This document shows, piece after piece, positions 4,223 through 48,839 of a DNA stretch of 64,000 nt. Origin of the DNA: Cliona cf. orientalis (Eukaryota > Porifera > Demospongiae > Clionaida > Clionaidae); NCBI GenBank assembly GCA_963930775.1, contig OZ005699.1, positions 7,399,501 to 7,463,500 on the forward strand, read 5' to 3'. Numbering within the stretch: the first letter of the stretch is position 1; each line of letters begins with the position of its first letter. The notes beneath the pieces were generated by a model. The model saw only the letters and a program-made list of their open reading frames with translations. It made no database searches and had not been told where the DNA came from. Both the position numbers and the translations under genes were made by a program.

Positions 4223-4610
4223 TACGTCCAGAGTCCCTCATGAATACGCCGCCATAAATTCGAACTAGGACACATCGACAAACTGCGCATGCTCCGTATA
4301 CGCGTACAATATCGGGGCGCGCGGCTTGAGCCGGTTGACCTTCACCTGCCATGTGCTCGACTGAATAGGGAAATCCCCCCGAGTGCGAGCTCGCCAAAGA
4401 AAGCGAGCCGAGAAAATCGCCATATCTCATCGATAGTCCACGATGTCTTCTACGCTAGGTTCGAATTCTGGGTCCCAACACCCTATCATGTGAGCTAAAC
4501 ATTTTGAAACAGTTTCACAGCAATTACATCATAGGTTTCATCATCATTTCATCATAATTTCATCATAGCGAGAGCGGAATTCTTAGTTTCTAATTGGGAC
4601 TCTGGACGTA
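4223..4610. mobile_element. MITE with TACGTCCAGAGTCCC ends
   Basis: 388 bp with perfect inverted ends TACGTCCAGAGTCCC (4223-4237) and GGGACTCTGGACGTA (4596-4610). Beta-helix coding resumes immediately to the right (NITSSTFTNNSAIRGG). The interior is GC-rich and non-coding. It is the third insertion in the same coding region. Confidence 0.75.
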
Positions 4611-6558: not shown

Positions 6559-7870
6559 TTATCTTGTCACAGTCACTGGCCCGCTGTGCTTGTTGTAATT
6601 CTCTTAGCTGCCATTGTAGCAGGAATATTGTTGGTGACTGCACTGTTAGTCATCAACATGACAGTGGCTGTTGGACTGATCAATGGCTTTATCTTTTACG
6701 CTAACATTGTAGCAGCTAATAGTGCCGTCTTCTTTCCATCGTCAGAGCCTAGCTTTCCCACACTGTTAGTAGCTTGGCTTAATCTGGACATAGGAATTGA
6801 TGTCTGTTTCTTTGATGGTCTTGATGCATACACCAAAACTTGGCTTCAACTGCTTTTTCCAATCTACATTATCTCCCTAGTGATTATTGCAATCATCGTC
6901 AGTGAGTACTCCCCTCGATTTGCTAGACTAATTGGAAAGAGAGATCCAGTTGCAACTCTAGCTACACTAATTCTGCTATCTTATGCCAAACTCCTCTCAG
7001 TGACTATCACAGTTTTGTCGTTTGCTGTCCTTGACTATCCTGATGGCTCACGTGAGACTGTATGGCTTCTTGATGCGAATGTGCCATACTTTCAAGGAAA
7101 ACATGTAGCTCTTGTCCTCGTTGCTCTGTTGATTATTCTAGTTGGTACTCCCTACACAATTCTTCTCTTTCTTTGGCAGTGGCTTGTTCGAGCTCCGAAG
7201 TGGAAGGTTTTCAAATGGACAAGGAACACTAAACTCAATGCTTTTATCTCTGTCCATCATGTTCCATACAACAATAAATATCGCTACAGGACTGGCTTGC
7301 TACTGCTTGTGAGGGTGGTCTTGTACATCACTGCTTCAGTGACTGTGTCCGCTGATCCTCAAACTTCACTTTTAATAGCTAACATCTCAGTGGGAAGTCT
7401 CTTTCTCTTAAAAGAGATTACTGGAGCGAGGGTGTACAAAGAATCTTTCTTGAACATTATAGAGACAGGGATCTACTTCAATCTTCTTGCATTGTCTACT
7501 TTTAGCTGGTACCGCTTCAAAATGGACACTGAGAAGCAGACAGCCATTGCCTACACTTCTACCATCATAATCTTCATCCTTCTGGTCGGAGTAATTATCT
7601 ATCACGTGTATTTTCTGGTTAGAAAGGATCATCCCCGGCGGGGAGAGGAGTTGAATGAGCATCTCCTGGCTTCAGTTCAAGCTGTTAAAGTTGAAGTAGC
7701 TAACTCACTCTATCATTGAAATCCCCAAGCCTTGAGCTCAAGTCTCCACCACCAGAAGATAACATTGATCAGATTGAGGTCCAAGAAATTATATGCACGG
7801 CAACACTTGAGTACTGTTAATAAACTGAGTCTGATTTCTATTAATTTGGTGGTATTTCCAACAATCATGA

Positions 7871-17642: not shown

Positions 17643-18010
17643 ACACTAAGCAGAAAAAAAATTGTTCGAAAACCGCCACATAGTTGAGCTGGATGCATAG
17701 TAGAGCCATACAATGCAAGCAGGCAGCCTATACATCAATTTTGATCAAAGTGGGTAATGGTCGTCACGTTAATGTGCGCGCGTGGCCCCACCCCTCACGT
17801 AGCGCGTGGGCGGAAAACATTGCAAATGCATGGCTTCCTATACAAACATAATATGGGGTAACTTCAAAGGGCCGTAACTATAATTCTAAGGTGTGAATCA
17901 AAATTCCCCAGGGTCAAATCTCTAGTTTCGACCCATTCTGCGTGCCCATGTAAAAATTATCTCCCCAAGTGCTCCCAACCCCCCCAAACATTAATTAATT
18001 ATTTAAATCT
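17643..18010 (+). mobile_element. CACTAAG-family non-autonomous element, copy a
   Basis: It starts ACACTAAGCAGAAAAAAAAT and contains the recurrent body (AGTTGAGCTGGATGC, GGCGGAAAACATTGCAAATG, CCCCAAGTGCTCCCAA). It ends in poly(T) beside a tRNA-bearing element, and its right inverted end is missing. Related copies lie at 19,451, 33,427, 33,816, 41,972 (minus) and 42,490 (minus). Confidence 0.7.
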
Positions 18011-18031
18011 TTTTTTTTTTCAAGCTAAACC

Positions 18032-18665
18032 ACAACCTAAGATAAAAGAATTTTATCAAGCAGTAATTAGTTAACGGTATGTCACCATTTTCTATCATAC
18101 ATGCCTGCTACAATAGGTCAGGTATGTGGTAAGGCAGAAAATCTCAAGTTGCAAATATTGATTACTATAATACTAATGCGTAACATATCTGAGAGTGACT
18201 TGGGGCTTGTATACGTAATCATCCCCTAGTCTAGATCCAACGTAAGGAGCACTGCCCATGGAATGTTGTTGGTGTATGTCAACTGCCTTCCTAGCATCAC
18301 TGGCAGTGGAAAAAAAGATGGAAAAAAATTGGCCCCGGGTGGGATTCGAACCAGTGCACGCATTTGACACTGGTTGGCAGACACTGAGCTTAACCATTGC
18401 ACCATCTGGACAGTAGTCATTTCCTTCATACTTTAGTGGTTAGAAACTACTACGACTCTTATTTCAAAATTGAAAGTGAAAATCAAAAATCTGAGACGAT
18501 TCAATTATTATTTTTGATCCACTCTACATGCTGATATAAAAATTATTGCACAATACCTTTTCCTGTGCTTCGAATGCATTATTTACATTACATTACATTA
18601 CATTACATTACATTACATTAATTACATTACATTACACGCTCACATATTCTTTTATCTTAGGTTGT
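18032..18665 (-). mobile_element. TIR element carrying a tRNA-like sequence, copy 1
   Basis: 634 bp with 20 bp inverted ends ACAACCTAAGATAAAAGAAT and ATTCTTTTATCTTAGGTTGT. A tRNA-like segment lies in the middle on the minus strand, and a (TTACA)n tract lies near one end (18,583-18,637). One further full copy lies at 32,723-33,387, and a third copy is split by the large transposon (20,279-20,610 plus 32,376-32,712). TIR ends point to a DNA-transposon MITE, whereas tRNA-like heads are typical of SINEs. The combination is unusual. Confidence 0.8.
18330..18412 (-). other. tRNA-like segment (pol III A and B boxes)
   Basis: On the minus strand, TGGTGCAATGG fits a pol III A box and GGTTCGAATCCC a B box, with normal tRNA spacing and a CCCGGGGCCA 3' end. 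I do not claim a functional tRNA: no clean anticodon arm could be folded. The same segment occurs at 32,380-32,459 and 33,047-33,125. Confidence 0.7.
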
Positions 18666-18769
18666 AACAAGCTACCGTGCACACTAAGCAGAAAAAAAAA
18701 ACTGCGGCACATAAGTATACGTACCTGCATTGTATAGGTTCACACGAACTTAGGCTTACTTTACATTGA

Positions 18770-19450: not shown

Positions 19451-20266
19451 TGCACACTAAGCACAAAAAGTTCCACATAATTAGAAACATGCATGTATAT
19501 AATATTCACGCGCTACAGTATAATAATAATATTATTACTGTAAAAAAATTGTCCAGAAACCACCACATAGTTGAGCTGGATGCCCATACAATCGGAAACA
19601 AGGCCGTCTATGCTCCTAATAGAACCGCCTAGAAAACTCAGAGTATATGATCAGTGTTGAGAGGTTCAGTACCAGTGGCCGCTGCAATATGTTACTTCCT
19701 ACTAGTACTCAAGATCATCACAGCACACACACAAGGCTAGGCGAAGAGGTTCAGTACCTGTGGCCCCTGCAACACGTTACTTCGTACTAGTACTCAAGAT
19801 CACCACAGCACACACACAAGGCTAGGGGAAAAGCACAAAACAATTTTAGTTATGTTTCTCAACTAGATGTACTTTCCCACACATCCACAATGTAAAACTA
19901 TAGCTGTATTACCCCACCTACCTCAGCAAAAACGGGAGAGTTACAGTTGTGACTGATTCCTCATCCATTCAGCAAGTCTCTGGATACAATACCAGCTCCA
20001 TGGTAGCCTATGCATGTACTGGACTAGCGATTTTCTAAATAACGCACACCGGGACTCAAAACATTGCAAACACATGGCTTCCCTGTACAAACATATGGGT
20101 AAACTTTAAAGGGCCATAACTTTAATTCTAAGACATGAATCAAAATTCCCCAGGGTCAAATCTCTAGTTTCGACCCATTCTGCGTGCCCATGTAAAAATT
20201 ATCTCCCCAAGTGCTCCCAAACCCCCCATGAATTTTTATTTTATTTTTTTTTCTACTTAGTGCGTA
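19451..20266 (+). mobile_element. CACTAAG-family element, copy c
   Basis: Bounded by CACACTAAGCACAAAAAG at the left and TTTTTTCTACTTAGTGCG at the right (inverted). It contains an internal tandem duplication of about 95 bp (19,655-19,745 and 19,748-19,830; AGGTTCAGTACC..GTGGCC..CACACAAGGCTAG) and the family body. A related long copy is 33,816-34,820. Confidence 0.7.
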
Positions 20267-20278
20267 ACAAGCTAAACC

Positions 20279-20610
20279 ACAACCTAAGATAAAAGAATTT
20301 TATCAACAAGTAATTAGTTAACGGTATGTCACCAGTTCCTATCATATATGTCTGCTACAATAGGTCAGGTATGTGGTAAGGCAGAAAATCTCAACTTGCA
20401 AACATTGATTACTATACCCACTATAACGTCATAATACTAATGCACAGCGTGACATCTGAGATCTGTGTATTTGAGAGTGACTTGGGGCTTGTATATGTAA
20501 TCATCCCCCAGTCTAGATCCAACATACGGAGCATCACCCATGGAATGTTATTTGTGTATGTAGACTGCCTTCCCAGCATCACTGGCAGTGAAAAAAAAGA
20601 TGGAAAAAAA
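20279..20610 (-). mobile_element. Left half of tRNA-bearing TIR element, split by large transposon
   Basis: It starts ACAACCTAAGATAAAAGAAT and matches the first half of 32,723-33,387 up to GATGGAAAAAAA. The rest of the same element (TTGGCCCCGGGTGGG onward) resumes at 32,376 and ends at 32,712. This split defines the insertion site of the 11.8 kb transposon. Confidence 0.85.
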
Positions 20611-20808
20611 TCCCAGCTAGAATAGACTTGCAAGTTCGTGCAAGATTCTTGCATTATGTACAAGATCTTGCACTTTTCTTGCAATTGCAAGGTTTGCACC
20701 ATGCATCTTGCGGAATCTGTGCATATTTCTTGCAAGTGCAAGACACACCTTGCACAAAACTTGCACTTGTATGAATTTCTTGCAGTGTGCAAGGTACTCC
20801 TTGCACAA
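20611..20808. repeat. Left subterminal CTTGCA/TGCAAG array
   Basis: About 200 bp packed with TTGCAAG, CTTGCAC, TGCAAG and CTTGCA in both orientations, many as palindromes (TTGCAATTGCAA, CTTGCAAGTGCAAG). Such arrays bind an element-encoded protein in plant CACTA transposons. Here the BEN protein is the obvious candidate. Confidence 0.85.
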
Positions 20809-20936
20809 TTTACAATTATTCTTATGTTGAGCTATAGCAACAAGTATTAATTTTAACACTAATTCCGTTAATAATTGATAACAATGCACACAATAGATAC
20901 TATACAACATCAGTACGAGATAAATTTGTAGGTTCT

Positions 20937-23900
20937 CTATTCATTCTCTATATCATTTATAGGGAGGGTTAATACTTTCCAGTTATTAGTTGTAAGGTTG
21001 AAGCATTTGTGAATTATGTCAGCTGCAAAAATATAAGTTACTGCTCCTTCATCAAATGTACGGTAGTCATTAAATAGTAATTGTTGACTATCAGCAGTTA
21101 TTACAGAGTCAGATAAACGATGAGGTGGGCCAATAGTCTGTGTAGTGAGAGTTTTTACGACTGCCAATGGACAGACATTAGTGGATACCTGAATAAACTT
21201 CTCAACTATTCCATAGCCCACAGTAGAATCTGTGCTGAACATCACTGTATAGCTATTTCGCTTCTTAACCTTTTTGTACCCACTACTGAAGTACATTTTC
21301 CCATTGATCATGGCTTTATGATGAACAGATACATGGTTAATCGGTTTCCTGAGTGCCTGAAGACCACGGGTGATTAGCAGCTGGTCTATCTGGTGGATCT
21401 CATGGTCACAGAGGATTGATAATTTGGCCATTCCAACTAAATGCACATCTGCTTGAGCTCCTGTCCTAATTATATGTATGCATGTAATGTGGATGCATCA
21501 CCTATTGTCATAGTACTAAGTCTAGAAGAACAAATGTATGTGTATACAATGAATGCAATGCCATATAGGGTAATAAATATCCCCTATAATTAAAGTATGT
21601 CAGTCTCCCCTTTACCTTTGAAATGTGCTTAGATAGGACTTGACTTGAAAAGGACAAGCGGGAGATTCCATCAGAAGCTGTCTTTCTCTGCGGAGCTTGT
21701 TCCCAAGTAAAGCTGCTGTAACAATCTAGTTAATATTGAACACATATACCAGTCAATTAATTATGGATTTATATTGTACATATGGTACAATCTTTATGCA
21801 AATCACTACTTAAGGATGGCATGCAAGCAATGGTGAACATCAAAGGATGCTTGTGGTTTTTTTAGGGAGGCACTCTATTGCTCGTTAGAGATTTCCCTGA
21901 TGGGCACATATACTGGGTGCCAAGAAGTACTTTGATGCTACAGATACATAATTACTGACTAAGAAACAATGGTATATATTACACTACCTGCTTTGAGATT
22001 CCATGTGTAGCATGGGAATACTTTAACAAATTGCCCATTTGTCCTTCAAATGGAAAGGCCGAGTGAGTCCACAGTGGCCCATAACACCTGACATAAAAAG
22101 GGAGATGCACTAGCATGTGAACGTTGATGCCACAATTCTCCAATCCTAAAGGAATAACCGTGGTAAACACACAATCAAATTAAAATGGCATGAATACTAA
22201 CCATAGTACTCTTCCACTAATTTGCAAAATTTCTTTAATAACTTTTCAGCTGTCTCGACATCATCATTTGAAACTTTGCTACCTAACAGCAACCTGATTG
22301 CCTTCACAAGTAGCAGGATATGGACGTAGAGCGCATCCAGTAGTATACCATAGAGGGTCACAGGAATATAGTACAACAGGAAGTACTTCCACTCACTTGC
22401 TGCATTGGAATGAAGTATTATGGCTGAACATAGATACATATAAAGGGGGGGAGGTACAATGTTCAGGCTTAATTACAAGCCCTACATGCATAATTCGGCT
22501 AACCTTTCCAAAACTTTCTGTGCTTCAGGCTACGTGGACCACGAGATATGCAATCCGGCATCTTTATCTGTAACAGGCGTCTATCTACCTCATCTAGTCT
22601 CTTACCAATGTACCTGTATATATGAAGTGTAAGTGGGATTTGAATTTTCCAAAGAGAATGCATATAATAATATTATCTGTAATATTAGTTGAGGGAAAAA
22701 CATTACTGAAGACTCAATCCACATTCCCGCCCACTTCTGGTACAGACATGAGGGTACATATCACTCACAGTCAAAAATTAGCTGAGCACAATGATATAGC
22801 CGTAACTCAATCATGGGTAAGTGCACTGATTGTGGTACGTGGGGCCCATTTAAGGAGGTCAAACACAAGGGAAAAGCTGTTTGTATACAGATCATAGTGG
22901 ATATGGGAAATTGTCCACGACACTTTATAAAAGAATGTTCCACCATCACGTTGAACGATTTCAATCATATTAGTGGTAGGAATTCTATAGGTAACGTGAA
23001 TGTCTTTATCACATTCCAATTTTAAGCAAACTGCCGAATCTTTTAACTTGATCAAATAGAATTCAGAAAAATCTGTGAAGAAACTCTTTGGCTTTCGTCT
23101 TCTGCCACTTTTGAACTTGATGTAAGTTGTTTTTAGCCTCATTTTACTCTTCAATATCACAAACTAACTTTTAGCCTTACTACAGTAACTTCAGCTGAAA
23201 AATGACTAATGCCAAGTGTACACATAATATATAGCATATGAGAGGCACACCAGTGCAGGCAAAAACTTGTACAAGTGAGTCAGACTACACATCAAGGCTA
23301 GTTTATACAAGAACAAGTAACACACAGATAATTAACTAATTAGTGGCCAACAAAAAGTACCACTGTCATGCATGCATATGCAGGCTTAACCTAAACCACA
23401 AAGCTGTAAATGTTGGTTTTATGTAGTCTCCTCTGTCATTGCCTTCTCAAAACATGAAAAATAATTGCTTGCATCAACCCTAGATAAAAAGACATGTTAA
23501 ATTAATTATCACCTATACCATTCTTCCTTATGGTAGGATGAGTTGAACCACAGTTTTGCCATGTTTTTTACAACTCCAATCAGTACGCAGTGCATGTAAT
23601 CCACCGGAACACACTTGACGATATCAAATGAAGGGAGCAAATGAAGAGGGGAGTACCCTTTAACACCAAACATTGCCTGTATATTTGTACCAATAACACA
23701 CCATGTTCATACTTTCTGCTATAGCTAGGCCTCACTTTGCCATTATCCAGAGCATTTTGTGCATCCATCAAATGGTCATCATGATTTCTCATGGTCAACG
23801 AGTGCTGGTATGCATAAGCTCTTGCGTGGCCCCTTCCTACTCTGACCTGTATACACAATAAATTATAATACCCCTGGTGGGGCATGCAGTATTTCCTCTA

Positions 23901-26470
23901 GGACTGAATTCAAACAGGGTGGTTGAGTGTTAACATTACTATCATTGAATAGTATTATGGGATATTACATTGGCCATGAAGAGGGAATAATTTGCTTTAC
24001 AGGCATAATTATGCAATGTGCACTAGGATATAGTCACTGTGTATGCACAATCTACTATGTGTGCATGTGCTGTGTACACTAGTAAAACCACATGTACAGC
24101 TGTACTGTAAACCACTGTTGCAGCTGTCAGCATTTTTGCAAATCAAACAGGGCGGGACGCCCCTTTTTAAGTAGAGTAGCGGAAACACTGGGCATGCATA
24201 TGCATGTACACAATGCTCACTGCATACATGTATGTAAATGGAATGATAGCTACTGTAACATAACTTGTTGGTAGTTGCTTAGCAACCAAAGTTTTTATAG
24301 GCAATTTGCCGGCTATGGGAAGGGGTTGGGTCATCATAAAGTAGGCCAATGATGAACAGAGGTCAACTACCAACAAAATAGTTATCTGCCAGTAATTGGG
24401 GTGCATTCGACCATGAATCTCATGCACCCCAATTACTAGCTGATAACTATTATATACACATGCAAGAAAATTGGTACCCAGGCGTATGTACCAAGGGTCA
24501 ATGAGTTTAATTTCAGTCACCACTTATTACCAAGTACACAACTAATACATGTATATATGATTGACTCACAGAACAACCAGGATGCTTGCAACTTGAGCAA
24601 CCATATTCACCATTGTACTGCATGCAGTTTAGGATTGCAGCCTTGGCTGGTAGGTCAACAACTACGCACAGCAATTGTGCTCTCACAGTATGCTTTCCTT
24701 CCTTCGGAATATCAACCTCCAAACCTGTATATTGACATCACAGTATAAATAAAATTATATATAAACACCTGAATAGCTACCTTCTTCTTCCAAAGTTTTT
24801 AGACGCTTAAAGGTCGGCTCCAAAAAGGAAAATGCAGCAGGCTTAGAAGTTGAGCACCACAACCCAGCCAAGAACATATGATCTTTGCTCCTTCTAATAT
24901 TTGAAATAAGTATATGACATGCAGAGGTTAGCATAATTAAAAATGATGAATATGATTGTAATGACCTACCGTAGAATAGGTGGTAATTCATTCAGGCACA
25001 TCTGGATAGGCCATATTTGCATATTAGAGGATTTGAACTTGGGAGCTCCATCATAATTCAATGTAAAGGATACATTATATATATCAGAGAAAAATTCACA
25101 CCTCTCTTGGTAGACATATCCATCGTAAATATCACACAAATCAACATCATGTGGCCGTTTGAATCGATACTTCAGTAATTCCAGAAAGTTTCCATCTAAT
25201 CCGTGCAGATAAAAATTACAATTACTCAGGTGCATTAAAGACTACGAATGGCAGCTATAAAATTATAGGTGCTCTGAAACGGAAGTCGAACTGCCCACCT
25301 ACATTTTTAAATTCCTTTCAAAACTCGGTCAATCCAATGTCATTGCAAAGGCGTAACCAGGCGATATTTTCGCGCTGTGCTCGCGCAGATTGAGAGGTAA
25401 GATGCGTGACATGAGTGATCGATTGATATTCACAAAGTCAAACGTAGAAAAGATGGCTCACGATCCTGTTGTTGTTGACATCAACATGGCTGGTAGGCAT
25501 CCAGGAGCTGGCCTCATGCTTGCGAACTTTCTCCACTACAATAATACACAACGCGCCGTGTATACGCTTAGCACTTTCATGCTTTGTTCGATTACGTAAT
25601 GACTAAGTCTTCCATTCAGAGCACCTTTAATGCAGGTAACTCTATAAATAAGCTAGGCTAGGAAATAATGTGCTTAATTCTTATAATAAAACCCACCTAT
25701 TAAACTCCTATATTTTGATACAGGGACTTACCCATGAACCTCTCTTTTAACTGTGCATCTATAGCCACTTCAACGAATGTTGCTTCCTTGGCACCTGATG
25801 CTCTACATTCTCTTCGGGTACAACTTCCATCAGGTAATAGCTGGCAACACGTATCACAACAGCGGTGTATTATGGTTTCAGCATCATAAGTGACAAACTC
25901 CTTAAGTACCATGTGTTGTGAAGTAGGTAGAGCATTTGGACTAGAAAGAACACACTGGAAGAGTTTAAGGATGTCTTCGAGGGCTGAATAAGTAAGATTA
26001 TGCTTTTGATACACAGACATCAGTGCCACAGAGAATTCATGACTAGAGAGCTGAGCACCAGGATAAAGCAATCTCCTGACACCTTGCTCAGCCTCTTCAT
26101 GTTCACTATTAGTACTTGAATAGCCATCAAAGTCACTAAACTCATCACTGATTTCAGAAGTGTAATCCTGTAGTTGATCCATCTGATCCGACGTACTACT
26201 GGACAGACTGTCTTCACCACTAGATGCATTACTCATGCATTCACTGATATCACTTGATTGATTGTCAGAGCCAGGTGTTTCAATATCTATGTCCGCATCG
26301 CAGAGGGTTTCTTCTACATTATCATGATGGATATTGTTAGCGGGTGTGTCTGATTCAGTATGGCTTGATCGTTTACGAAAAGCCTTAACATCATATTCGA
26401 CAATCTGCTTTGCTATATTAGCTCTTAGGCGTCGCTTTTGTCGATCGCTCAAGATCTTTCTGGTTGCCAT
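20937..26470 (-). CDS. CACTA/EnSpm-type transposase
   Basis: Exons: 25,732-26,470; 24,970-25,195; 24,781-24,893; 24,570-24,724; 23,736-23,846; 23,513-23,676; 22,504-22,613; 22,202-22,399; 21,988-22,145; 21,616-21,715; 20,937-21,460, about 865 codons. The chosen start is MATRKILSDRQKRRLR; an in-frame ATG at 26,578 lies in repeat DNA. Order: basic N-terminus, acidic Ser-rich linker, then tnp2-like blocks (DIYDGYVYQ, SFTLNYDGAPKFKSS, IWPIQMCLNELPP, MFLAGLWCSTSKP, VVVDLPAKAAILNCMQYNG, CSSCKHPGC, VPVDYMHCVLIGV). A DUF4218-like region follows (INVHMLVHLPFY, YGPLWTHSAFPFEGQMGNLL). Phases match at eight of ten junctions. Both junctions of the 21,616-21,715 exon are out of phase, so that exon is misplaced here or carries indels. 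It would cut and paste the element by its TIRs in the nucleus. Confidence 0.85.
22807..23160 (-). CDS. Unknown 117-residue ORF inside a transposase intron
   Basis: It lies on the same strand as the transposase, in the intron between exons 23,513-23,676 and 22,504-22,613. It starts MILKSKMRLKTTYIKFK, then RRRKPKSFFTDFSEFYLIKL, and ends APRTTISALTHD. The composition is protein-like and mixed, but I recognise no family. The transposase homology joins cleanly across it, so it is not part of the catalytic core. It may be captured DNA, an alternative exon, or chance. Confidence 0.35.
   Translation of the reverse strand: MILKSKMRLKTTYIKFKSGRRRKPKSFFTDFSEFYLIKLKDSAVCLKLECDKDIHVTYRIPTTNMIEIVQRDGGTFFYKVSWTISHIHYDLYTNSFSLVFDLLKWAPRTTISALTHD
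24378..24446. repeat. Hairpin in a transposase intron
   Basis: AGTTATCTGCCAGTAATTGG..GTGCAT pairs with ATGCAC..CCAATTACTAGCTGATAACT around a loop of about 15 bp. Probably a tiny fold-back insertion in the 723 bp intron between exons 24,570 and 23,846. Confidence 0.75.
25196..25731. other. Transposase intron 1
   Basis: A 536 bp intron (GTAAGT donor, GGATTAG acceptor, read on minus). A plus-strand ORF at 25,447-25,599 (MAHDPVVVDINMAGRHPG) is present. I cannot link it to a gene. Confidence 0.5.
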
Positions 26471-26883
26471 GTCCCAGGCCCAATGCTCGAGCTCGTCACC
26501 GGTGCACCATCGATGCATCACATTATGGTCACGTGGATCATGGCCCATGCATGCATGCATGCTTAGTCTCGTCCCCAAGGGTGGGGTCTGGGGACGAGAC
26601 TCCGCCCGCTAGCGCTAGCCGCTCTGATCGTGCGCGAGCGCTGAGCTAGCTGATCTGATTGGTCAAACCAAAATGGTCACGTGATAGGACAGGGCCTGCA
26701 TGCATGCATGCACCAGCGCGCAGTACACAGCTAAGTGGTATTGCGCAACATCGAATTTGAATTTACCACGTGCTCATACATCTTGGCTTGGTGATATCAG
26801 TCGGTTGCAACGTTGAGCGCTGACTGAGGGAGGTGAAAGACCCTGCTAACTCTTCGACTATCACTGGATGTGGCAGTATAACG
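26471..26883. promoter_or_regulatory. Divergent intergenic region of the transposon
   Basis: The transposase start (26,470, minus) and the BEN-gene start (26,884, plus) face away from each other across 413 bp, so both promoters must lie here. It contains GCATGCATGCATGC tracts (26,549 and 26,699) and a perfect hairpin AGTCTCGTCCCC..GGGGACGAGACT at 26,565-26,602. No TATA box or initiator can be assigned. Confidence 0.5.
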
Positions 26884-29800
26884 ATGGAAGACGAGGATGT
26901 CGATGGATTGAGTGCACTACCCGGCTCCACGGTCAAAAGTAAACGACAAATGGAGAAGTCCAAAACACGGATGATCAAAGGTTTAGTATTTACAGCTGCG
27001 TGTGTTTGTGTATTTAGAATCATTCTATACAGTACTGGTACATGTTCTATTAATTAGCACGCCTGTAAAAAAACTGATAATAATTTGCGAGTGCTGATAG
27101 GGCCTGATAATTGAATTATAGTGAAGATGGCGCACACCGGTCTAGGTATAAGGATGCGTGGGTGGGGAAATTTTAATAGAGCAATTCAAGCCGACACTAT
27201 TTTTATTAGAGAGATGTGTTAATTGGGGGGGGGGTTATTTCAGGATTTGAGGGACTGTCATGTAGTGCCCATCAAACTAAACTTTTACAAAAAACTATAG
27301 GGCACATACCCTACGTGCTCTGTAGCCACTGTAGCATAGTATTGCAACACTCTACTGCAATGCTGTTTATGACCTTTTGAGCTTGAGCATGTGCAGGCAC
27401 ATCAGTGGGTGTAGTTGATAAACCAAAGGCATGCTGGACAGAAATGCATGATTAGTAGCGCTAGTAAGCCTTTTTTGAGTGATATGAAGTATCACGGTGC
27501 AAACCATTTTTTTTACCATTGTCTACTGATTGGTTGTGCTTAGAGCACGTACAAATGCCTAGAACACAAGATATGACGATTTTTGTGCTGATGACGACAA
27601 TGACAACAACAGACAAACAGATTGCTTTACCCCTCAATTGCGTGTGCATGCGGGATCATAATGATAGTATATCAATCCTCCCTTCCACTGACTCTACTAT
27701 AGTCATTATGCTTCCATTAGATACTTATTTTCTCATTAACTGGCTGGATGACCCAGAAGGAGACGATCTTTATGATGTTGTAAACTCTAAGTTAGTAGTT
27801 CCACCAGATGATGTTGACATATTGGGAGTCACACCAGGAACAATTTGCAAAGTTGCATATGGTGGTTCTTACTACAAGGCCAAAGTGCTGCAGATAGGTT
27901 GGTATCTATCATATGATATGGTTGTATAATCCAGGTTACTGAGTAGTGTTCATTTTGAACTAGTGAGCCTTAGATATCATCCCAAAAGTCCCTTTCTCCT
28001 AAAATAGTTCTATAAATGCTATATTATTTACCCAGCCCTCTCTTCTCCCCACAAAGGGGATCTACAAGGGGACAAGGCTACCCTGTGCATGTTGTATGGT
28101 TACACGAGTACCATTACTTGTGTGCAAGCCTTAATATCGATATCAAACATATCCGGGCTATAATATATATAGGTTCATGTGCTGAGCTAAAAAAAGCTCA
28201 AAAACAGTATGAAAGAGAAGAGACTGAGGTGTGTGCATGTATGTACTTGTATATGAATGTGTATGATAGTGTTAATTGCAGGCAACCAGTGCTAGTGAAA
28301 ATACTAGTACAAGTTCAGGAATTGCCGCTACCAAGGTACATTTATTCCTATATACAAATACAAATTAAACAAATCCTTTCTAATAATCCTAGCCGAGTGG
28401 TCCATCCACGAGCAAACCTAACAAAAAGATTGCTACGCCTAAATCTAGCAAAAGTCCGAAAAAGAAAGATACAATCAGTATGTACATGCATTGTTTTATA
28501 TGGTCCATAGCAATTTTATTGTGGGTTCAACCAGTAATTACCTGTATGCGACCTAAAATTTCTATAGAGAAAAAGGGATCACCAAAGAAATCTGTATCAC
28601 GATCTAGTCCTCAAAAGCCCCGTAGTCCACGAAAGCCAACTTCAAGTGAGTGGAGGTGTACATAGTAATATACATATATATGTATGATACCAAGAATGTA
28701 TTAGGAAGAGTACATAATTGCGTGGATGAGCAAACTCCTCTATGGTGTCATCCTATATGTGCCAGCCTAACCATAGCTAGCTGTGCTGAACTTATTTCAT
28801 TTACACACTGATCATACACATGTGGTGCAGTGTCTGGTCAGAACTACCCCATCAAGGGACTACCATACAGTATTATTCATAGGCTTGTGGCCATACAGTT
28901 TTCATAAAATCTTGTCATACTTGTACAATATTATATTTGTCTGATACACTACATAAGCACCATGCTAACATCTATGTACTCTTCCTAATATACTCTTGAT
29001 GGTACTGGTACTTATTCCATGTGCATGTGCTAAGTACTCCAGGTGAAAGTGTGTGACTATAATATTTGAGTCTGTTTCTATTTAGTGTTATGTCAATTAG
29101 CTATAGGCTAGGCAGCCATGTCAAGATTTGCATGAGGCACATGATCTTTCCAGAGTGGGTTGAGGTAGCAGGCAGGTTCGTATTTGGAATCTCCTTTTCC
29201 CTCATTGCATGACGTTGAGTCCTAGATACAGCTATGTTTTCTAAACAGAAAAATGCTATATTGAGTGCAATGCAATACGTATCAGATTAAGTATACACAG
29301 CATTTAGTTTACTTCAAATTGAATTTACTAATACAGAAGTATCCAAAACAGCAAGTCCAAGGAAAAAAGGTTGTGGATCAACCAGTACGTTTTGACATGT
29401 ATTCCCAGCTAAAATTCATTTGATGGTACTGAATACACGGCAATATAATAGGACCTATTGATCTCACTGAACACAGTTCTAGTAGTGAGGAACTGTCAGG
29501 TACTGTAATGTAGTAATTCATTTCTACCGTATTTAATTTATTGAGTGAAGTATATTATAGACATTGATAATACTCCTAGAGGTCGTAGACCTAAAGGCAA
29601 AGGTATGTAATTGTACTATAATGGCGGTGAGTGAACCTTTGCATGCAGCGTTCAATTTTGAGGATGTTTGATCTACCTATAATGTTTAATTTTCACTGAT
29701 GCATGCGTTTAGACCCATTATGTGCTCCATACTCGACAGCTATCAAGCGTATTTCATGGGTTTAAGTTTGGCTATTATATTGCAGAAGTTAGACCCAGGT

Positions 29801-31710
29801 ATTTCCCCCAGAACAGAATCCAAACTGGGTGCTAATGATATTCATAGGTTTTAAACTAACTTAAGTTATGGCTTTAAACTTCACCCATTTTGATGTTTAT
29901 CCAATTAGCCCGAAGTCAAACTGGGTGGCCCATCCTGATTCAGGGTATGCTGGGGGAATACTGAAGACCATTAAGACTTTTAACATTTTTGAGAAACATT
30001 TTGCTAATTTTGACAGCACCAGCCTCACTTCGTGTCTTAATGGAATCCAGAGGTTAGTAAATGGGAATTATATAGTATGTGTATAAAGTGTTACGAAATT
30101 TATATAGCTTTACATTCTGCATCAAATCATGCTCAACTTGATGAAAAGTCTACTAGTAAGTTATTGTTGAAAGCATGGAATATAGACCATTCATTACGTA
30201 CTTCCCTTTATTCAAAGGACCGACTCATAGTGATAGTGATGAACTTGAGATTCAGTCAGGTAATAGCTATGTGTAGCTAATCGTACGCGTCCCTCCATGT
30301 ATACTTTCAGTGAGATGCATACAAGTATAGTAATGCACTAACCTACCACCCCTAGTAGGTGGTTTGGTCTTCCACTGACATTAAGTTTACCTGAGCACCC
30401 AGTGGGATGGTTGCCCCTTAGGTTTGGGACTATTACATAAACCCTATGCCTACTGTAACTTTGGGAATTTTTATTATATTTCTCTATAGATGAGGAAAGT
30501 GCTGTGGTCATCAAAAGAGGTGCATGTTTCGGGCTGAGTCCTCCTTGACTGTATATATCTGTATAAAATTATAATAATTATGTTGTCTATACACAGGAAA
30601 GAGACCACATGCCTCCTTGGATGCAGCGAAGAGGCAATGGCAAATGGACATATTTAAAGAGGTACATAGAATATTGATTAACATACCAGTTCCTAGAGTG
30701 ACAAATTAATAATTGTAGCCAACTCCTAAGCGCCAAAAGCAATCAAATGTGAGTTCACTAGTAGTACATACATGTATATGTCCCTAGCATAATAATGTTA
30801 CGATTCTCATGTCAATGTATTTATTCTGCATACATGCATACATGCCGATTAATGTTTGATAATGTATTTGTATATACAGGATGAAAGTGGAAGTGGACTG
30901 GTATGAATTTACTATAATATTATATTGAGTTTAACAACTCTAAAATAACATGCAAACATTTTAGTCAGTGTTTCAGCTTCGTTACATACAAGATCGAGTC
31001 ACCAAGTTGGAGGTTTGTATACCATGGATATAGATGTCTTTGAATCCATGCCTTACCTTGTGCATGCAGGAGAAAACCAAGAGACTGAGTGGAAAGATTA
31101 AGGCGCAAGCCCAAGAAATTACAGAACTAAGACGAAGATCTGTAACACCCTCATCCGAAACCTCTGACGTTTCATTTACCACCCCCAAGCAACTCTCGAC
31201 CAGTGAATCTAGACAGTCGCAATCCACCAGTGATGAGTTGGATATTCCTGGTGATGAGGTAAGCTATTGTTATTAATAACATTGAACTTAATTGCATTTA
31301 TTGTATTTGTATATAGGCTCATGTCCGTGTTTGTGGTTATCCAGTTGACAGACTTAAGCTTCAGACAGCTAAATTACAGAGTTCTGCTTCTAAGTGTGCC
31401 TTAAAGCTACTTCAGTGCTTGTTTTCGTTTGAAGAGTTAGCCCACGGTAACCCCTCTGGTATAACTACGGCCAAGAATGATGCCAGGAAGAATACCATTT
31501 CAAAGTTAGATCCTGTTCGAATGAAGTACATTCAAGGTTTGTCGGAATTATTCAAACATGCAGTATATGTGTTTCAATTTTGCACTATAACTACCTACAG
31601 ATTATGTGGAAAACAAGTGGCCAAACTCATTTGTGGAGCAGAAAATAATGAAAAAGTTAACCCAAAGGTGCACAGACCTCCATGGCGATTATGAGAGGGC
31701 ACGGCAATAA
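26884..31710 (+). CDS. BEN-domain DNA-binding protein of the transposon
   Basis: Exons: 26,884-26,980; 27,703-27,897; 28,173-28,228; 28,282-28,335; 28,393-28,477; 28,568-28,645; 29,337-29,384; 29,452-29,499; 29,561-29,602; 29,786-29,798; 30,186-30,259; 30,490-30,519; 30,597-30,661; 30,719-30,748; 30,880-30,900; 30,965-31,012; 31,070-31,258; 31,317-31,536; 31,601-31,710. All junctions keep phase and sum to 1,503 nt (500 residues). Order: MEDEDVDGLSALPG start; a small SH3/Tudor-like module (FLINWLDDPEGDDLYDVV to ICKVAYGGSYYKAKV); a Lys/Ser/Pro-rich linker with acidic patches (GPIDLTEHSSSSEELS); a short coiled coil (LRYIQDRVTKLEEKTKRLSG); then a C-terminal BEN domain (KLLQCLFSFEELAHGNPSG, RMKYIQDYVENKWPN, KKLTQRCTDLHGD). 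BEN domains bind DNA. An alternative exon exists at 30,108-30,155. Probable role: recognition of the element's subterminal arrays, or chromatin targeting. Confidence 0.82.
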
Positions 31711-32018
31711 CTCATAAACATGGTAACTTCAAACTAAATTTTGTATATTCATCGTAATGGAACTTGACTATAATAATAATATTGTATGTGCTGTGTAATC
31801 TAGAATGCATGTATACTATTCAAAAATCCTTTGATACTTTCACAATTAAATATTTCATGTTATAATGCTTATTATGCATTGATATCCTACATTATAATAT
31901 GCTATAATATGTATGAAGCAAGTGTCTGTGTACTCTACGAATGCAATCTTCACGTAAGTATAATAATATACTATAATTATAGTAACTTTATCTTGCGTAT
32001 ACTGCAGTGTGTAATCTT

Positions 32019-32375
32019 ACACCTTGCAAGGTTCTTGAGTTTCCCCACATTAATCACCTATGTGATCTTGCAAGGTTCTTGCACTACTAGTTGCCCCATG
32101 CGCCTCAATTGCTGGTTTTACCATGCAAGAATCTTGCACTTTTTTGTACCTTGCAACCGCACAGGAAATACTGCAAGAAAGTGAAATTACCTTGCAAGCT
32201 AATCTTGCAAGATTCTTGCACATTTTGCAAGACAAGTGCAAGTGTTATGCAAGAAAGTGGTCATATCCCTTGCATTTGCAAGATTCTTGCAAGATAAGTG
32301 CAAGAATTGGTTGCAAGGCTGTCCAAGCTTGATGCAAGAATCTTGCACAATCTTGCAGTAATGTTCCAGCTGGGA
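32019..32375. repeat. Right subterminal CTTGCA/TGCAAG array
   Basis: About 350 bp with dense CTTGCAAG, TGCAAGAATCTTGCA and TTGCAAG units in both orientations, ending TTCCAGCTGGGA. It mirrors the array at 20,611-20,808 and is longer. Confidence 0.85.
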
Positions 32376-32712
32376 TTGGCCCCGGGTGGGATTCGAACCA
32401 GTGCACGCATTTGACACTGGTTGGCAGACACTGAGCTTAACCATTGCACCATCTGGATAGAAGTCATTTCCTGCATGCTTTAGTGGTCAGAAACTACTAC
32501 GACTCGTATTTCAAAACTGAAAGTGAAAATCAAAAATCTGAGACGATTCAATTATTATTTTTGATCCACTCTACATGCTGATATAAAAATTATTGCACAA
32601 TGTCTTTTCCTGTGCTTCGAATGCATTATTTACATTACATTACATTACATTACATTACATTACATTAATTACATTACATTACACGCTCACATATTCTTTT
32701 ATCTTAGGTTGT
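32376..32712 (-). mobile_element. Right half of split tRNA-bearing TIR element
   Basis: It resumes at TTGGCCCCGGGTGGG and carries the tRNA-like segment (32,380-32,459, minus), the (TTACA)n tract (about 32,631-32,690) and the end ATTCTTTTATCTTAGGTTGT. It is the partner of 20,279-20,610. Confidence 0.85.
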
Positions 32713-32722
32713 AACAAGCTAA

Positions 32723-33387
32723 ACCACAACCTAAGATAAAAGAATTTTATCAACCAGTAATTAGTTAACGGTATGTCACCAGTTCCTATAATATATGTCT
32801 GCTACAATAGGTCAGGTATGTGGCAAGGCAGAAAATCTCAACTTGCAAACATTGATTACTATACCCACTATAACGTCATAATACTAATGCACAACATCTG
32901 TGTATTTGAGAGTGACTTGGGGCTTGTATATGTAATCATCCCCCATTCTAGATCCAACGTAAGGAGCATCACCCATGGAATGTTATTAGTGTATGTAGAC
33001 TGCCTTCCCAGCATCACTGGCAGTGAAAAAAAGATGGAAAAAAAATTGGCCCCGGGTGGGATTTGAACCAGTGCACGCATCTGACACTGGTTGGCAGACA
33101 CTGAGCTTAACCATTGCACCACCTGGACAGTAGTCATTTCCTGCATACTTTAGTGGTCAGAAACTACTACGATTCGTATTTCAAAACTGAAAGTGAAAAT
33201 CAAAAATCTGAGACGATTCAATTATTATTTTTGATCCACTCTACATGCTGATATAAAAATTATTGCACAACACCTTTCCCTGTGCTTCAAATGAATTATT
33301 TACATTACATTACATTACATTACATTACATTACATTACATTAATTACATTACATTACACGCTCATATATTCTTTTATCTTAGGTTGT
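32723..33387 (-). mobile_element. tRNA-bearing TIR element, full copy 2
   Basis: Starts ACAACCTAAGATAAAAGAAT, ends ATTCTTTTATCTTAGGTTGT, with the tRNA-like segment at 33,047-33,125 and (TTACA)n at about 33,299-33,360. It is only 10 bp from the preceding half copy, so the two lie in tandem. It gives the uninterrupted sequence that proves the transposon insertion point. Confidence 0.85.
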
Positions 33388-33426
33388 AACTACTTAGTGG
33401 TATAATTTTGTTCAAGGCGACCAGAA

Positions 33427-35202: not shown

Positions 35203-35292
35203 GTAGGGTCCGCAATGTGAAATTTTGACCTCCGAATTTCGGATAAATTATAATTGGCGCATCAAGAGCTCATCGATACTTAATCAACTGGA

Positions 35293-37035
35293 CCACTTAA
35301 TAATTCTCATCCACCCATCCAACTCCAGGAGGTTTCTCAGCATCCTTCCTGTCCAGAGGAGGTACTCTGCTCTGAGTCTGAGGTGGGTGATTTATTGGCA
35401 GCTCTGGACCCTTCTAAAGCTAGTGGGCAAGATGGCATATCGGCTAGAATGCTAAAATGCACAGCATACAGTATTGCTCCTTCAATCACTAAGCTCTTCA
35501 ACTTGTCACTAACTACTGGCACCATTCCATCTGTGTGGAAGAAGTCGTTAATTGTTCCCATTCCCAAGAACCAAGAGCTCTCCAACCCATCCAATTATCG
35601 TCCGGTCTCTCTCCTTCCTATCGTCAGTAAGGTTCTTGAACGTCACATCTTCATGATAGTAATGGATCATCTTAAGCTTAATCACCCTCTCTCTGCCTTT
35701 CAGTGGGGTTTTCTGGAGGGAAGGTCAACTGTCACCGCTCTGCTCCACTTAACCGATCAATGATATGGTTCCAGGCACTGGAGTCTGGGCACGATGTATG
35801 TGCAGTATTCTTTGACTTCCGTAAAGCCTTCGACTCGGTACCTCATTTTCCACTGATGACAAAGATTCGTTCACTTGGTCTACCTGAAAGTATAACCCGA
35901 TGGTTGAATAATTACCTGGCTGACAGATTTCAAATGGTTGTCGTCAATGGTTCAGTATCTTCTGAAGCTGCGGTACTGTCGGGTGTTCCGCAGGGCTCTG
36001 TTTTAGGCCCATTGCTGTTTCTTATTTATATTGACGATTTACCCAATGTTGTCCAAGCCTTACTGGGTGATTCTAAAGTAAACCTTTTCGCTGACGATAT
36101 TCTTTTATATCATCTTATCTTGAATCCTGATGACTACATCTTGCTACAGCGGGCAGTGTTGTTGATCGAACAATGGACCAGGTCTGTAGCTAACTTTCTG
36201 TCATTTAATGCAGGAAAGTGCAAGTAGCTACATGACTGTTTCTAGGAAGCAATCCCCATTGGTTCCATCCAACCCCCTGAAGCTATTTGGAACTCCATTG
36301 CAGAAAGTTGACTGTTACAAGTATTTGGGGCTATTATTGACAACGAACTTGAGCTGGTCTGCTCATATCACTTCTATTTGTTCTAAAGCCAAGAAAATTC
36401 TGGGTCTAATCTACAGGAGATTCTATGGCTCAGCAGACCAGACCACTCTCAAGCAACTTTACCTCTCATTAGTCCGTCCACACCTAGAATATGCCTGCCA
36501 GATCTGGGACCCCCATCTTATCAAGGACCAGAAAATGCTGGAGAATGTCGAAAAGTTTGGTTGCAGACTTGCTGCCCATCATTGGGATGCAAGCTATCAA
36601 GAACTACTCGAGTTGTTTGAACTCCAGCCCCTTGAGCAGCGACGACTTCACCTCAAACTGGGATTGATGTTTAAGATCATTCATAATCTCTGTTATTTCC
36701 CAAATGTTCCACCAATCCATGATGATTTGCCAAGTTTAAGAGGTGTTCACTCGCTCTCTTTGGATCCGCCATTTGCTCACACCAATGCATATAAGTACTC
36801 CTTCTTTCCCCACACCATGTCTGCTTGGAACTCCCTAACTAATGAATGTGTCACTTCATCATCATACTCCTCATTTATGAGGCAGCTAAGACTAAGTTAT
36901 ACTTAATTTTATGTATTCATTTTAACTATTAGTTACTTTAGGGTGCACACGAGATTAGTATGCAATTACTATTGTGCATCCATTGCATATTAAGATGCAT
37001 AAAGTGTTATAGAGAAAAAAAAAACAAAAAAAAAA
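35293..37035 (+). pseudogene. 5'-truncated LINE reverse transcriptase
   Basis: The reverse transcriptase starts abruptly (PSCPEEVLCSESEVGDLLAA, 35,320 on) and shows LDPSKASGQDG, NYRPVSLLPIVSKVLE, FFDFRKAFDSVPH, SGVPQGSVLGPLLFLIYIDD and the catalytic FADD in VNLFADDILLYH. The thumb and C-terminal region run to 36,906. There are two frame breaks, near 35,760 (TGA) and near 36,225 (TAG). The endonuclease and ORF1 are missing. The 3' end is an A-rich tail (37,013-37,035). AACTG at both edges may be a short target duplication. A non-LTR element of the Jockey/CR1/L2 group, dead on arrival. Confidence 0.85.
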
Positions 37036-45299: not shown

Positions 45300-48200
45300 T
45301 ATGTTACATCAATAACTACAGTCCCATCAATAACTACAGTCTAAATAGTCACTACTGTCAACTACAGTCCCACCAGTCTCCACTGTCACATCAGTAACTA
45401 CAGTCCCATTGGTCACTACTGTCACATCAGTAACTATAGTCTCAATAGTCACTACTGTCAACTACGGTCCCACCATTCTCCACTATCACATCAGTAACTA
45501 CAGTCCCATTGGTCACTATTGTCACATCAGTAACTACAGTCTCAATATAGTCACTACTGTCAACTACAGTCCCACCAGTCTCCACTGTCACATCAGTAAC
45601 TACAGTCCCATTGGTCACTACTGTCAACTACGGTCCCACCAGTCTCCACTGTCACATCAGTAACTACAGTCCCATTGGTCACTATTGTCACATCAGTAAC
45701 TACAGTCTCAATAGTCACTACTGTCAACTACAGTCCCACCAGTCTCCACTGTCACATCAGTAACTACAGTCCCATTGGTCACTACTGTCAACTACGGTCC
45801 CACCAGTCTCCACTGTCACATCAGTAACTACAGTCCCATTGGTCACTATTGTCACATCAGTAACTACAGTCTCAATAGTCACTACTGTCAACTACAGTCC
45901 CACAAGTCTCCACTGTCACATCAGTAACTACAGTCTCATTGGTCATTACTGTCATATTAGTAACTACAGTCCTATCAGTCGCTATTGTCACATCAGTAAC
46001 TACAGTCCCATTGGTCACTACTATCATATTAGTAACTACAGTCCCACCAGTCTCCACTGTCACATCGGTAACTACAGTCCCATTGCATGGTCACTATTGT
46101 CACATCAGTAATTACAGTCTCAATAGTCACTACTGTCAACTACAGTCCCACCAGTCTCCACTGTCACATCAGTAACTACAGTCCCATTGGTCACTACTGC
46201 CACATTAGTAACAACAGTCTCAATAGTCACTACTGTCAACTACGGTCCCACAAGTCTCCACTGTCACATTAGTAACTACAGTCCCATCAGTCACTATTGT
46301 CACATCAGTCACTATTGTCACATCAGTAACTACAGTCCCATCAGTCACCATTGTCACTTCAGTACCTTCAGTCTCAATAGTCACTACTGTCAACTACAGT
46401 CCCACCAGTCTCCACTGTCACATCAGTAACTACAGTCTCAATAGTCACTACTGTCAATTACAGTCCCACCAGTCTCCACTGTCACATTAGTAACTACAGT
46501 CCCACCAGTCTCCACTGTCACATCAGTACCTACAGTCTCAATAGTCACTACTGTCAACTACAGTTCCACCAGTCTACATCAGTAACTACAGTCTCAATAG
46601 TCACTACTGTCAATTACAGTCCCACCAGTCTCCACTGTCACATCAGTAACTACAGTCCCATTGGTCACTATTGTCACATCAGTAACTACAGTCTCAATAG
46701 TCACTACTGTCAACTACAGTCCCACCAGTCTCCACTGTCACATCAGTAACTACAGTCCCATTGGTCACTACTGTCAACTACGGTCCCACCAGTCTCCACT
46801 GTCACATCAGTAACTACAGTCCCATTGGTCACTATTGTCACATCAGTAACTACAGTCTCAATAGTCACTACTGTCAACTACAGTCCCACAAGTCTCCACT
46901 GTCACATCAGTAACTACAGTCTCATTGGTCACTACTGTCATATTAGTAACTACAGTCCTATCAGTCGCTATTGTCACATCAGTAACTACAGTCCCATTGG
47001 TCACTACTATCATATTAGTAACTACAGTCCCACCAGTCTCCACTATCACATCGGTAACTACAGTCCCATTGCATGGTCACTATTGTCACATCAGTAATTA
47101 CAGTCTCAATAGTCACTACTGTCAACTACAGTCCCACCAGTCTCCACTGTCACATCAGTAACTACAGTCCCATTGGTCACTACTGCCACATTAGTAACAA
47201 CAGTCTCAATAGTCACTACTGTCAACTACGGTCCCACAAGTCTCCACTGTCACATTAGTAACTACAGTCCCATCAGTCACTATTGTCACATCAGTCACTA
47301 TTGTCACATCAATAACTACAGTCCCATCAGTCACCATTGTCACATCAGTACCTTCAGTCTCAATAGTCACTACTGTCAACTACAGTCCCACCAGTCTCCA
47401 CTGTCACATCAGTAACTACAGTCTCAATAGTCACTACTGTCAATTACAGTCCCACCAGTCTCCACTGTCACATTAGTAACTACAGTCCCACCAGTCTCCA
47501 CTGTCACATCAGTACCTACAGTCTCAATAGTCACTACTGTCAACTACAGTTCCACCAGTCTACATCAGTAACTACAGTCTCAATAGTCACTACTGTCAAT
47601 TACAGTCCCACCAGTCTCCACTGTCACATTAGTAACTACAGTCCTATTGGTCACTACTGCCACATTAGTAACTACAGTCTCAATAGTCACTACTGTCAAC
47701 TACAGTCCCACCAGTCTCCACTGTCACATCAGTATAACTACAGTCCCATTGGTCACTATTGTCACATCAGTAAATACAGTCTCAATAGTCACTACTGTCA
47801 ACTACAGTCCTACCAGTCTCCACTGTCACATCAGTAACTACAGTCCCATTGGTCACTACTTTCATATTAGTAACTACAGTCTCAATAGTCACTACTGTCA
47901 ACTACAGTCCCACCAGTCTCCACTGTCACATTAGTAACTACAATCCCATCAGTCGCTACTATCACATCAGGCAGTAAGCACAGTCTCAATGACAATAGTC
48001 ACTACTGTCACATCAGTAACTACAGTCCCACCAGTCTCCACTGTCACATTCAAGTTAGTAACTACAGTCCCATTGGTCACTACTGCCACATTAGTAACTA
48101 CAGTCTCAATAGTCACTACTGTCAATTACAGTCCTACCAGTCTCCACTGTCACATCAGTAACTACAGTCCCATTGGTCACTACTTTCATATTAGTATAAC

Positions 48201-48460
48201 TACAGTCTAAATAGTCACTACTGTCAACTATAGTCCCACCAGTCTCCACTGTCATATTAGTAACTACAGTCTCATCAGTCACTATTGTCACATCAGTAAC
48301 TAGATCTATAGACCCATCAAACTCAACTGTCATATCAGTAAATAATATAATCTCATCAGTTACTACTGTCATATCAGTAACTACAGCCCCATCAGTCACT
48401 ATTGTCACACTCGGATATACAGTTGCATTAGTCCCTACTGTCACATCTGTTACAATTATA
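45300..48460 (+). repeat. Tandem array, left arm (100 bp higher-order unit)
   Basis: Degenerate 29-36 bp monomers (TAACTACAGTC.CA...GTCAC, TACTGTCA) are grouped in threes to about 100 bp. A larger block of 986 bp is repeated: 45,839-46,429 and 46,825-47,415 are nearly identical. Open frames through the array are a by-product of the period and base composition. Confidence 0.93.
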
Positions 48461-48578
48461 TAGCATTAGTCTTTAGCTATAGTTTTATCATTCCCTAGCG
48501 GTATTGCCACGAGTACATTACTGGGAGTGTGCAGCACAACCAGTAGTAGTACAAACATTTCTTTCCAGATTTGACATC

Positions 48579-48751
48579 ACAGCCATCCTTTTACGTGGGC
48601 CTGAATATCATTAAAAGGTACTTAGGTTGCAACCACTGAGTTACATTCTGTATAGCTGCAGCTGCAGCTAGTTACTGATAGGACAGTGCAGACACAATAA
48701 TCATGGCTTCATGGTTTTAGTAGTTGTGTGTTAATGATAATATTCTGTGAG
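48579..48751. other. Central spacer of the fold-back
   Basis: Unique sequence with GCTGCAGCTGCAGC at its centre. No coding potential. Confidence 0.6.
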
Positions 48752-48839
48752 GTCAAATCTGGAAAGAGATGATTGTACTACTACTATGTGTGTTGCACAC
48801 TCCTGGTAATGCACTTATAGCTAAGGATACATGTTACAA

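Follow-up and report, generated by a model that had tools for sequence, protein, structure and literature searches.

The 64,000-nucleotide stretch of Cliona cf. orientalis DNA analyzed here (C11:7399501-7463500, hereafter the window) contains a structurally intact transposon of 11,763 bp at positions 20612-32374, in which a tnp2-type transposase gene and a gene encoding a BEN-domain protein are arranged head-to-head between matched inverted ends. A preliminary description had placed the element at 20611..32375, within one base of these bounds. The left terminal inverted repeat (TIR; 20612..20654, plus strand) begins CCCAGCTAGAAT, and the right one (32332..32374) begins CCCAGCTGGAAC on the minus strand, with pattern matches at C11:7420112 and C11:7431874, respectively; the element termini read CCCAGCT. 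The inverted arms, 20609-20654 and 32332-32377, are 83% complementary across 46 nt, and the 15-mer that had been noticed at offset 28-42 of both ends is part of an identical 17-nt block, GTGCAAGATTCTTGCAT, at offset 27-43, as read from the sequence.

The insertion is in a dispersed repeat, as had been proposed, with 41 matches listed in the 216.8 Mb of genome searched (40 of 322 candidates scored), including the window copy and one partial match. Copies of this repeat in the window lie at 17814-18674, at 20058-20611 plus 32375-32721, and at 32691-33390; by eye, its minus strand has a tRNA-like box, GGTTCGAATCCCACC, and the repeat appears SINE (short interspersed nuclear element)-like or tandem-prone. 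One unoccupied copy has an empty site at 18328..18329 reading GG-A7-TTGG, exactly as predicted for a 2-bp AT target-site duplication (TSD) at 20610..20611 and 32375..32376. In the second empty site (33044..33045) the A-run is longer by one A. The element has the features looked for in an autonomous transposon, namely two open genes, two intact ends, and a TSD.

The transposase gene (20937..26560, minus strand) was modeled with 11 exons encoding 900 residues. Exons 1-6 are 26560-25732, 25195-24970, 24893-24781, 24724-24570, 23846-23736, and 23676-23513, and exons 7-11 are 22613-22504, 22399-22202, 22145-21988, 21725-21616, and 21465-20937, the last containing the stop. All introns are GT-AG and there are no internal stops; with the acceptor that sets the start of exon 10 at 21725, exons 9 and 10 are in frame and yield the residues expected from relatives. 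Pfam Transposase_21 matches residues 1-688 with 45.3 bits (curated cut-off 28.6), and DUF1258 and DUF4218 match under their own cut-offs. D325, D413, E669, and the C2C/H3H motifs align with 12 animal and metagenome relatives, as do the CMC-type motifs NYDG, DLPAK, CSSC, HMLVH, and FPFEG (for the C2C and H3-4H definition, see the accessible text of PMC12730594). Residues 275-688 have 138 protein matches at E <= 0.001; the named ones among the best 120 of these include Misgurnus, Porites, Corticium, Clytia, Alosa, Acanthaster, and Ixodes, the named hosts being mostly animals, and Pfam BEN is listed for none of the 120. A PDB sequence search with residues 1-688 gave no match at E up to 1. A candidate partner exon inside a transposase intron (22807-23163) had no Pfam match over the cut-off and was left out of the models.

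The partner gene (26884..31710, plus strand) was modeled with 18 exons encoding 479 residues. Exons 1-9 are 26884-26980, 27721-27897, 28173-28228, 28282-28335, 28393-28477, 28568-28645, 29337-29384, 29452-29499, and 29561-29602; exons 10-18 are 30218-30259, 30490-30519, 30597-30661, 30719-30748, 30880-30900, 30965-31012, 31070-31258, 31317-31536, and 31601-31710. Its introns are GT-AG throughout and it is free of internal stops. Pfam BEN (PF10523) matches residues 398-462 of the spliced protein with 27.6 bits (curated gathering cut-off 23.2), the domain being encoded by the last two exons (31317..31710). Exon 27721..27897 encodes a conserved N-terminal domain, 81, 81, and 57% identical to that of the window in three other copies of the element; between the two domains, a basic linker with an AT-hook-like RGRRPKGK is followed, by eye, by a coiled-coil-like or helical-looking stretch. 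The 323 bp between the two start codons (26561..26883), presumably a bidirectional promoter, contain no CTTGCA site. The full-length protein had no PDB match at E up to 1, and no homologs were found among 5.8 billion proteins, where the 8000 candidates scored in one search were probably selected through low-complexity words and 25 candidates were scored in a second search. The two profile matches bear out what had been proposed from the sequence, a tnp2 transposase opposite a divergent BEN gene with the BEN homology in the 31.3-31.7 kb exons; the suggested 11 exons of the transposase stand, and the 19 of the partner become 18.

Other copies were sought with the TIR pattern CCCAGYTRGAAYNNNNNTGCAAG, which matches the genome at 69 places with at most two mismatches (16 for the reversed-pattern control), eight of them exact. 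Seven exact matches and one of the four 1-mismatch matches delimit four elements: the window element, C10:2207651-2220189, C1:31208938-31221988 (reverse), and C1:26805801-26824172. All four two-ended copies found contain both genes in the same head-to-head order, and the co-occurrence between TIRs that the preliminary description had put forward as a check is thus present in each of them. The C10 and C1:31.2 Mb copies are 92-97% identical per block from TIR to TIR and beyond that share only short repeats, so they represent independent insertions. The TSDs of the three good copies (window, C10, and C1:31.2 Mb) are 2 bp long (AT, CA, and AT). The C1:26.8 Mb copy is decayed, with stops in exons and flanks (AA and TA) that match over neither 2 nor 3 bp. 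The eighth exact match, at C1:25015270, marks the left end of a copy that is truncated and, an insert aside, 94-96% identical to the window element up to element position ~1807; past it, neither a right end nor BEN was found in the 15.6 kb read. This broken copy is the sole family member found without BEN, a finding that would have counted against the two-gene proposal had the element been complete. The nine family ends all begin CCCAGCT or CCCAGTT (eight exact pattern matches and one with one mismatch). Three further 1-mismatch matches (C5, C9, and C12) were judged chance, with no more than two CTTGCA per 250 bp of the sequence read there.

Both ends of the element are packed with the hexamer CTTGCA, with 15 sites in the left subterminal array (20627..20805) and 26 in the right one (32023..32357). 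Per outer 400 bp, left and right, there are 15 and 26 sites in the window element, 15 and 20 in C10, 14 and 22 in C1:31.2 Mb, and 14 and 17 in C1:26.8 Mb, compared with 0.18 per 400 bp in the interior of the window element and 0.18-0.55 across the four copies. The order of the sites is non-random. At the ends of three copies (window, C10, and C1:26.8 Mb; C1:31.2 Mb was excluded as too similar to C10), the spacing CTTGCAAG occurs 19 times against a null mean of 2.0, TGCAAGN3CTTGCA 14 times against 1.8, and direct CTTGCA repeats at 11 bp distance 13 times against 1.9, while no class exceeded 10 in 300 random placements.

The two proteins have long been conserved together. Over the codons aligned by tblastn, synonymous and nonsynonymous differences (pS and pN) between the window and C10 copies are 0.925 and 0.180 for BEN (275 codons) and 0.823 and 0.211 for the first 688 residues of the transposase (658 codons); for the window and C1:31.2 Mb copies they are 0.899 and 0.186 (285 codons) and 0.826 and 0.199 (656 codons). 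The C-terminal part of the transposase is slightly less conserved (207 codons, pS 0.73-0.74, pN 0.25). Synonymous sites are at or near saturation and both proteins are conserved to a like degree, pN being a lower estimate because only alignable codons were counted. In the recent C10/C1:31.2 Mb pair, dN/dS (the ratio of nonsynonymous to synonymous divergence) is confidently below 1 for the main transposase part only (0.55, bootstrap 0.37-0.86; C-terminal part 0.35, 0.07-1.75).

The same layout was found in sister families. The second family, read in two copies on C6 and C11, is 6.85 kb long and has CCCTAT termini; the copies are 99.65% identical, lie in unlike surroundings, and have TA and CA as their flanking repeats. 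Its transposase is 34% identical to that of the window, and the gene lying head-to-head on the opposite strand includes one exon for BEN (24.6 bits, above the cut-off) and another similar to the N-terminal domain. Tandem ~91-bp repeats were seen in the right part of this element (L051, about 6673-7265). The third family (C6:4947703-4955751 and C1:33.28 Mb) has CCCTAG termini, TG flanking repeats in both copies, the same gene order, and a BEN exon that alone remains under the cut-off. In total, 2-bp flanking repeats are present in all four insertions of these two families; the third-family TSD is less certain, as the third flanking bases are also common to both copies (T-TG and TG-C). The words enriched at the ends are ATCTTG/CTTGCA or AAGATC/ATCTTG. 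The top PDB match of a sister-family BEN profile is BEND6, a weak one (E 0.053), and BEN proteins account for four of the six chains listed at E up to 10.

Genome searches combined gave 86 transposase loci and 44 BEN-like partner loci, the latter found with the window BEN protein and the sister-family partner proteins (the 25 Pfam BEN hits are not included) and both clustered by position at 8 kb. A transposase locus lies within 10 kb of 24 of the 44 partner loci, and all 24 pairs are head-to-head; one of them, C12:5046330, was matched by the partner N-terminal domain only. In a random-shift control, which counted proximity only and in which some contigs were set to 9 Mb, the mean was 0.67 pairs and the maximum 5 (500 rounds). 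Pairing with a BEN-like partner follows the kinship of the transposase to that of the window: a partner is present at 20 of the 27 loci with at least 33% identity and at 0 of the 25 below 33%. Loci unmatched by the window transposase have a partner in 4 of 34 cases, some of these loci being simply unscored (65 of 386 candidates were scored). Partner loci more than 10 kb from any transposase locus include C1:29621505-29623038, C1:34890581, C10:4647159, C4:5936824, C19:3771178, and others; these could be solo or domesticated partners, or their transposase could have decayed. An earlier conclusion that BEN was confined to the window family, drawn when none of 29 BEN places (25 Pfam, 4 protein matches) fell within 20 kb of 87 transposase places, was misled because the single BEN exons of sister families score under the Pfam cut-off; it was overturned by reading a sister element and searching with its partner protein.

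One low-identity tnp2 element was read for comparison in two copies with 99.9% identity, C6:5326401-5332200 (L054) and C2:3997371-4003170 (L055). It has no BEN gene, an 899-residue transposase frame, a right end of CACTG type (...CCAGTG), and, upstream of and co-directional with the transposase, a 427-residue open reading frame (ORF) with a basic coiled-coil-like start, by eye. At its one delimited (right) end there is no array of CTTGCA or any other hexamer, the commonest reaching 6 occurrences per 400 bp, compared with 15 and 26 at the ends of the window element. Apart from these elements, a dispersed repeat of ~0.8 kb, 82-95% identical between copies (L040 ~4574-5384, L041, L042, and L043 ~5288-6068, at C1:16.32, C1:33.91, C1:16.23, and C13:4.96 Mb), encodes a BEN-like exon about 41-43% like that of the window in the two copies aligned. 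The window transposase is unmatched in these four 10-kb loci, and the repeat is possibly another mobile or amplified BEN family. Among viral contigs, 37 pattern matches to relatives were found and none was confirmed.

We suggest, with a probability of about 0.6, that the element is an intact two-component animal CCC-terminal (TRC) relative of CACTA/EnSpm whose BEN protein binds the arrays and pairs the ends. Because the same two-gene layout recurs in many diverged relatives, the BEN protein probably contributes to the function of the transposon and is no passenger. The tnp2 transposase would cut and join at the CCC...GGG ends and so create the 2-bp duplications. The palindromic CTTGCA/TGCAAG sites packed into the outermost ~200-350 bp at each end would be bound by the BEN protein, which would thereby assemble and pair the ends for the transposase, in the role that TNPA has beside TNPD in maize Spm. 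From this analogy, already drawn in the preliminary description, we infer that BEN binds the arrays and is needed for transposition. Such a role fits because the element keeps a protein of a DNA-binding family and has palindromic arrays at both ends and none at the promoter, and because BEN and arrays occur together in CCC-terminal elements and neither occurs in the one CACTG-type element examined. In the accessible text of PMC7764960, known BEN domains bind short palindromes, for instance ACATGT and CCAATTGG.

Several observations weigh against this interpretation. The same text reports the BEN domain of NAC2 on a non-palindromic site. In two sister families the BEN exon taken singly reaches 14.9 (the third family) and 12.7 bits, against the cut-off of 23.2. 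Twenty of the 44 partner loci are more than 10 kb from any transposase locus and seven of the 27 close transposase loci lack a partner match, though many of these loci may be fragments; one of the seven was read, the truncated copy at C1:25.0 Mb. The codon comparison of BEN is restricted to 275-285 of 479 codons, that is, the conserved ones, and in the C10/C1:31.2 Mb pair its dN/dS of 0.49 (bootstrap 0.17-1.5) is indistinguishable from 1. The comparison with non-BEN elements consists of one element with one delimited end. Finally, BEN could act elsewhere and the transposase itself could bind the arrays.

This last point leads to the main rival, which we regard as a serious but distinctly less probable explanation: the transposase reads the arrays, and BEN is the chromatin or transcription factor of the element, acting as a boundary, in anti-silencing, or in promoter control. 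The accessible literature describes several animal BEN proteins (Insv/Elba) as acting at boundaries or in repression, and the N-terminal domain, conserved at 57-81%, looks by eye like a chromatin-type module. However, the shared promoter region lacks CTTGCA sites and the arrays are restricted to the ends in all four copies; with the arrays lying away from the presumed promoter, autoregulation is a poorer fit than end recognition. The lack of a hexamer array at the delimited end of the non-BEN tnp2 element is likewise the expectation if arrays serve BEN.

A role of BEN in steering target choice, toward particular chromatin or repeats, seems improbable. The window insertion does sit in a dispersed repeat, and the four insertions of the two other families are flanked by TA, CA, TG, and TG; but the flanks of C10 and C1:31.2 Mb are unlike, and the TSDs of the window family vary, the decayed copy lacking a 2-bp match altogether. 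It is very unlikely that the co-occurrence is an artifact in which one locus was recently duplicated a few times. Near-identical loci are indeed present among the 24 pairs (C6:4.6 Mb, C11, and C1:24.27 Mb; C6:62 kb and C1:18.45 Mb; C6:4.95 and C1:33.29 Mb; C10 and C1:31.2 Mb), but 19 loci remain after recognized near-identical copies are collapsed, the best transposase match is 37-44% identical to that of the window in 16 of the 24 and four more are unmatched by it, and the termini differ among the three families read (CCCAG, CCCTAT, and CCCTAG). Least probable of all is a host BEN gene caught by chance or carried as a passenger: BEN genes unlinked to tnp2 would agree with it (25 Pfam hits in this genome, all more than 20 kb from each of 87 tnp2 places), but it is contradicted by the two genes in 4/4 two-ended copies, protein conservation at saturated synonymous sites, and 24/24 head-to-head pairs in diverged families.

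Elsewhere in the window, non-LTR (non-long-terminal-repeat) retrotransposon-like ORFs with endonuclease- and reverse-transcriptase-like words, by eye, are seen at 52718-56663 and 35284-36903 (plus strand), and minisatellite-like repeat frames (SLLSTTVPPVSTVTSVTT...) at 46381-50107 on both strands.

Plant CACTA elements need a transposase and a second, end-coating protein. A second component of the animal branch is not described in the accessible literature. In the genome studied here, tnp2 transposases of one group are regularly paired with a separate divergent BEN gene, and this pairing provides a concrete candidate for the second component, putative binding sites that can be tested, and a possible source of animal BEN chromatin proteins. 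More speculatively, and with considerable doubt, a clade of animal CCC-terminal tnp2 transposons may read its ends with BEN, and animal BEN chromatin factors (boundary proteins, BANP, NAC1, and BENDs) may descend at least in part from such end-binding transposon proteins, retaining the binding of clustered palindromes and the joining of distant sites.

With respect to known systems, the preliminary assignment to CACTA/EnSpm stands as to a complete two-gene tnp2 transposon and does not stand in the strict sense: Transposase_21 with DDE, C2C, and H3-4H is present, whereas CACTA/CACTG (CA..TG) termini are absent and the TSD is 2 bp instead of 3 bp in the window, C10, and C1:31.2 Mb copies. The termini and TSD, on which we base the assignment, appear to fit the animal TRC elements, which include SmTRC1 of Schistosoma mansoni, a 9.2-kb element of Aedes aegypti, and a Tribolium element (DeMarco et al. 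2006, PMC1636069, accessible text). The CCC terminal core proposed there is found in all three families and a 2-bp TSD in three of the four two-ended copies of the window family. As described in that text, TRC elements share with the window element a Transposase_21 gene, CCC termini, and a 2-bp TSD, and the Aedes TIR CCCAGTCAAC also begins CCCAG; the text mentions a transposase ORF but no partner gene, whereas the window element has the head-to-head BEN gene, and it is further distinguished by an 11-exon transposase and subterminal CTTGCA arrays. In the literature searched, as far as accessible, there is no description of a BEN-tnp2 transposon or a transposon-encoded BEN protein, in agreement with the preliminary description, which knew of none (Repbase and most subscription journals were outside the search).

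The plant CACTA/EnSpm elements (maize Spm/En, Tam1, and soybean Tgmt*) resemble the window element in combining tnp2 with a second DNA-binding protein and short-repeat arrays at the ends, but have CACTA termini and a 3-bp TSD, instead of CCC and 2 bp (PMC2613891, accessible text). According to the same text, TNPA recognizes subterminal repeats, TNPA and TNPD are both required, and TNPA and TNP1 of Tam1 show little similarity and are supposed to have a like role. TNPA is an alternative splice product of one transcription unit and is not called a BEN protein there, whereas the window BEN protein is encoded by a separate divergent gene. Fungal CMCT transposons with TET/JBP genes (EnSpm, ESTA, and Plavaka) also combine a CMC-type transposase with C2C and H3-4H and an accessory gene, but their accessory enzyme is a dioxygenase, their termini are mostly CA..TG, and their TSDs are 2-5 bp (Kojima 2025, PMC12730594, accessible text). 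Finally, the animal BEN proteins NAC1, Insv/Elba, BEND6, and BANP have in common with the window protein a Pfam BEN domain over the cut-off; they are host factors, whereas the window protein is encoded by a transposon.

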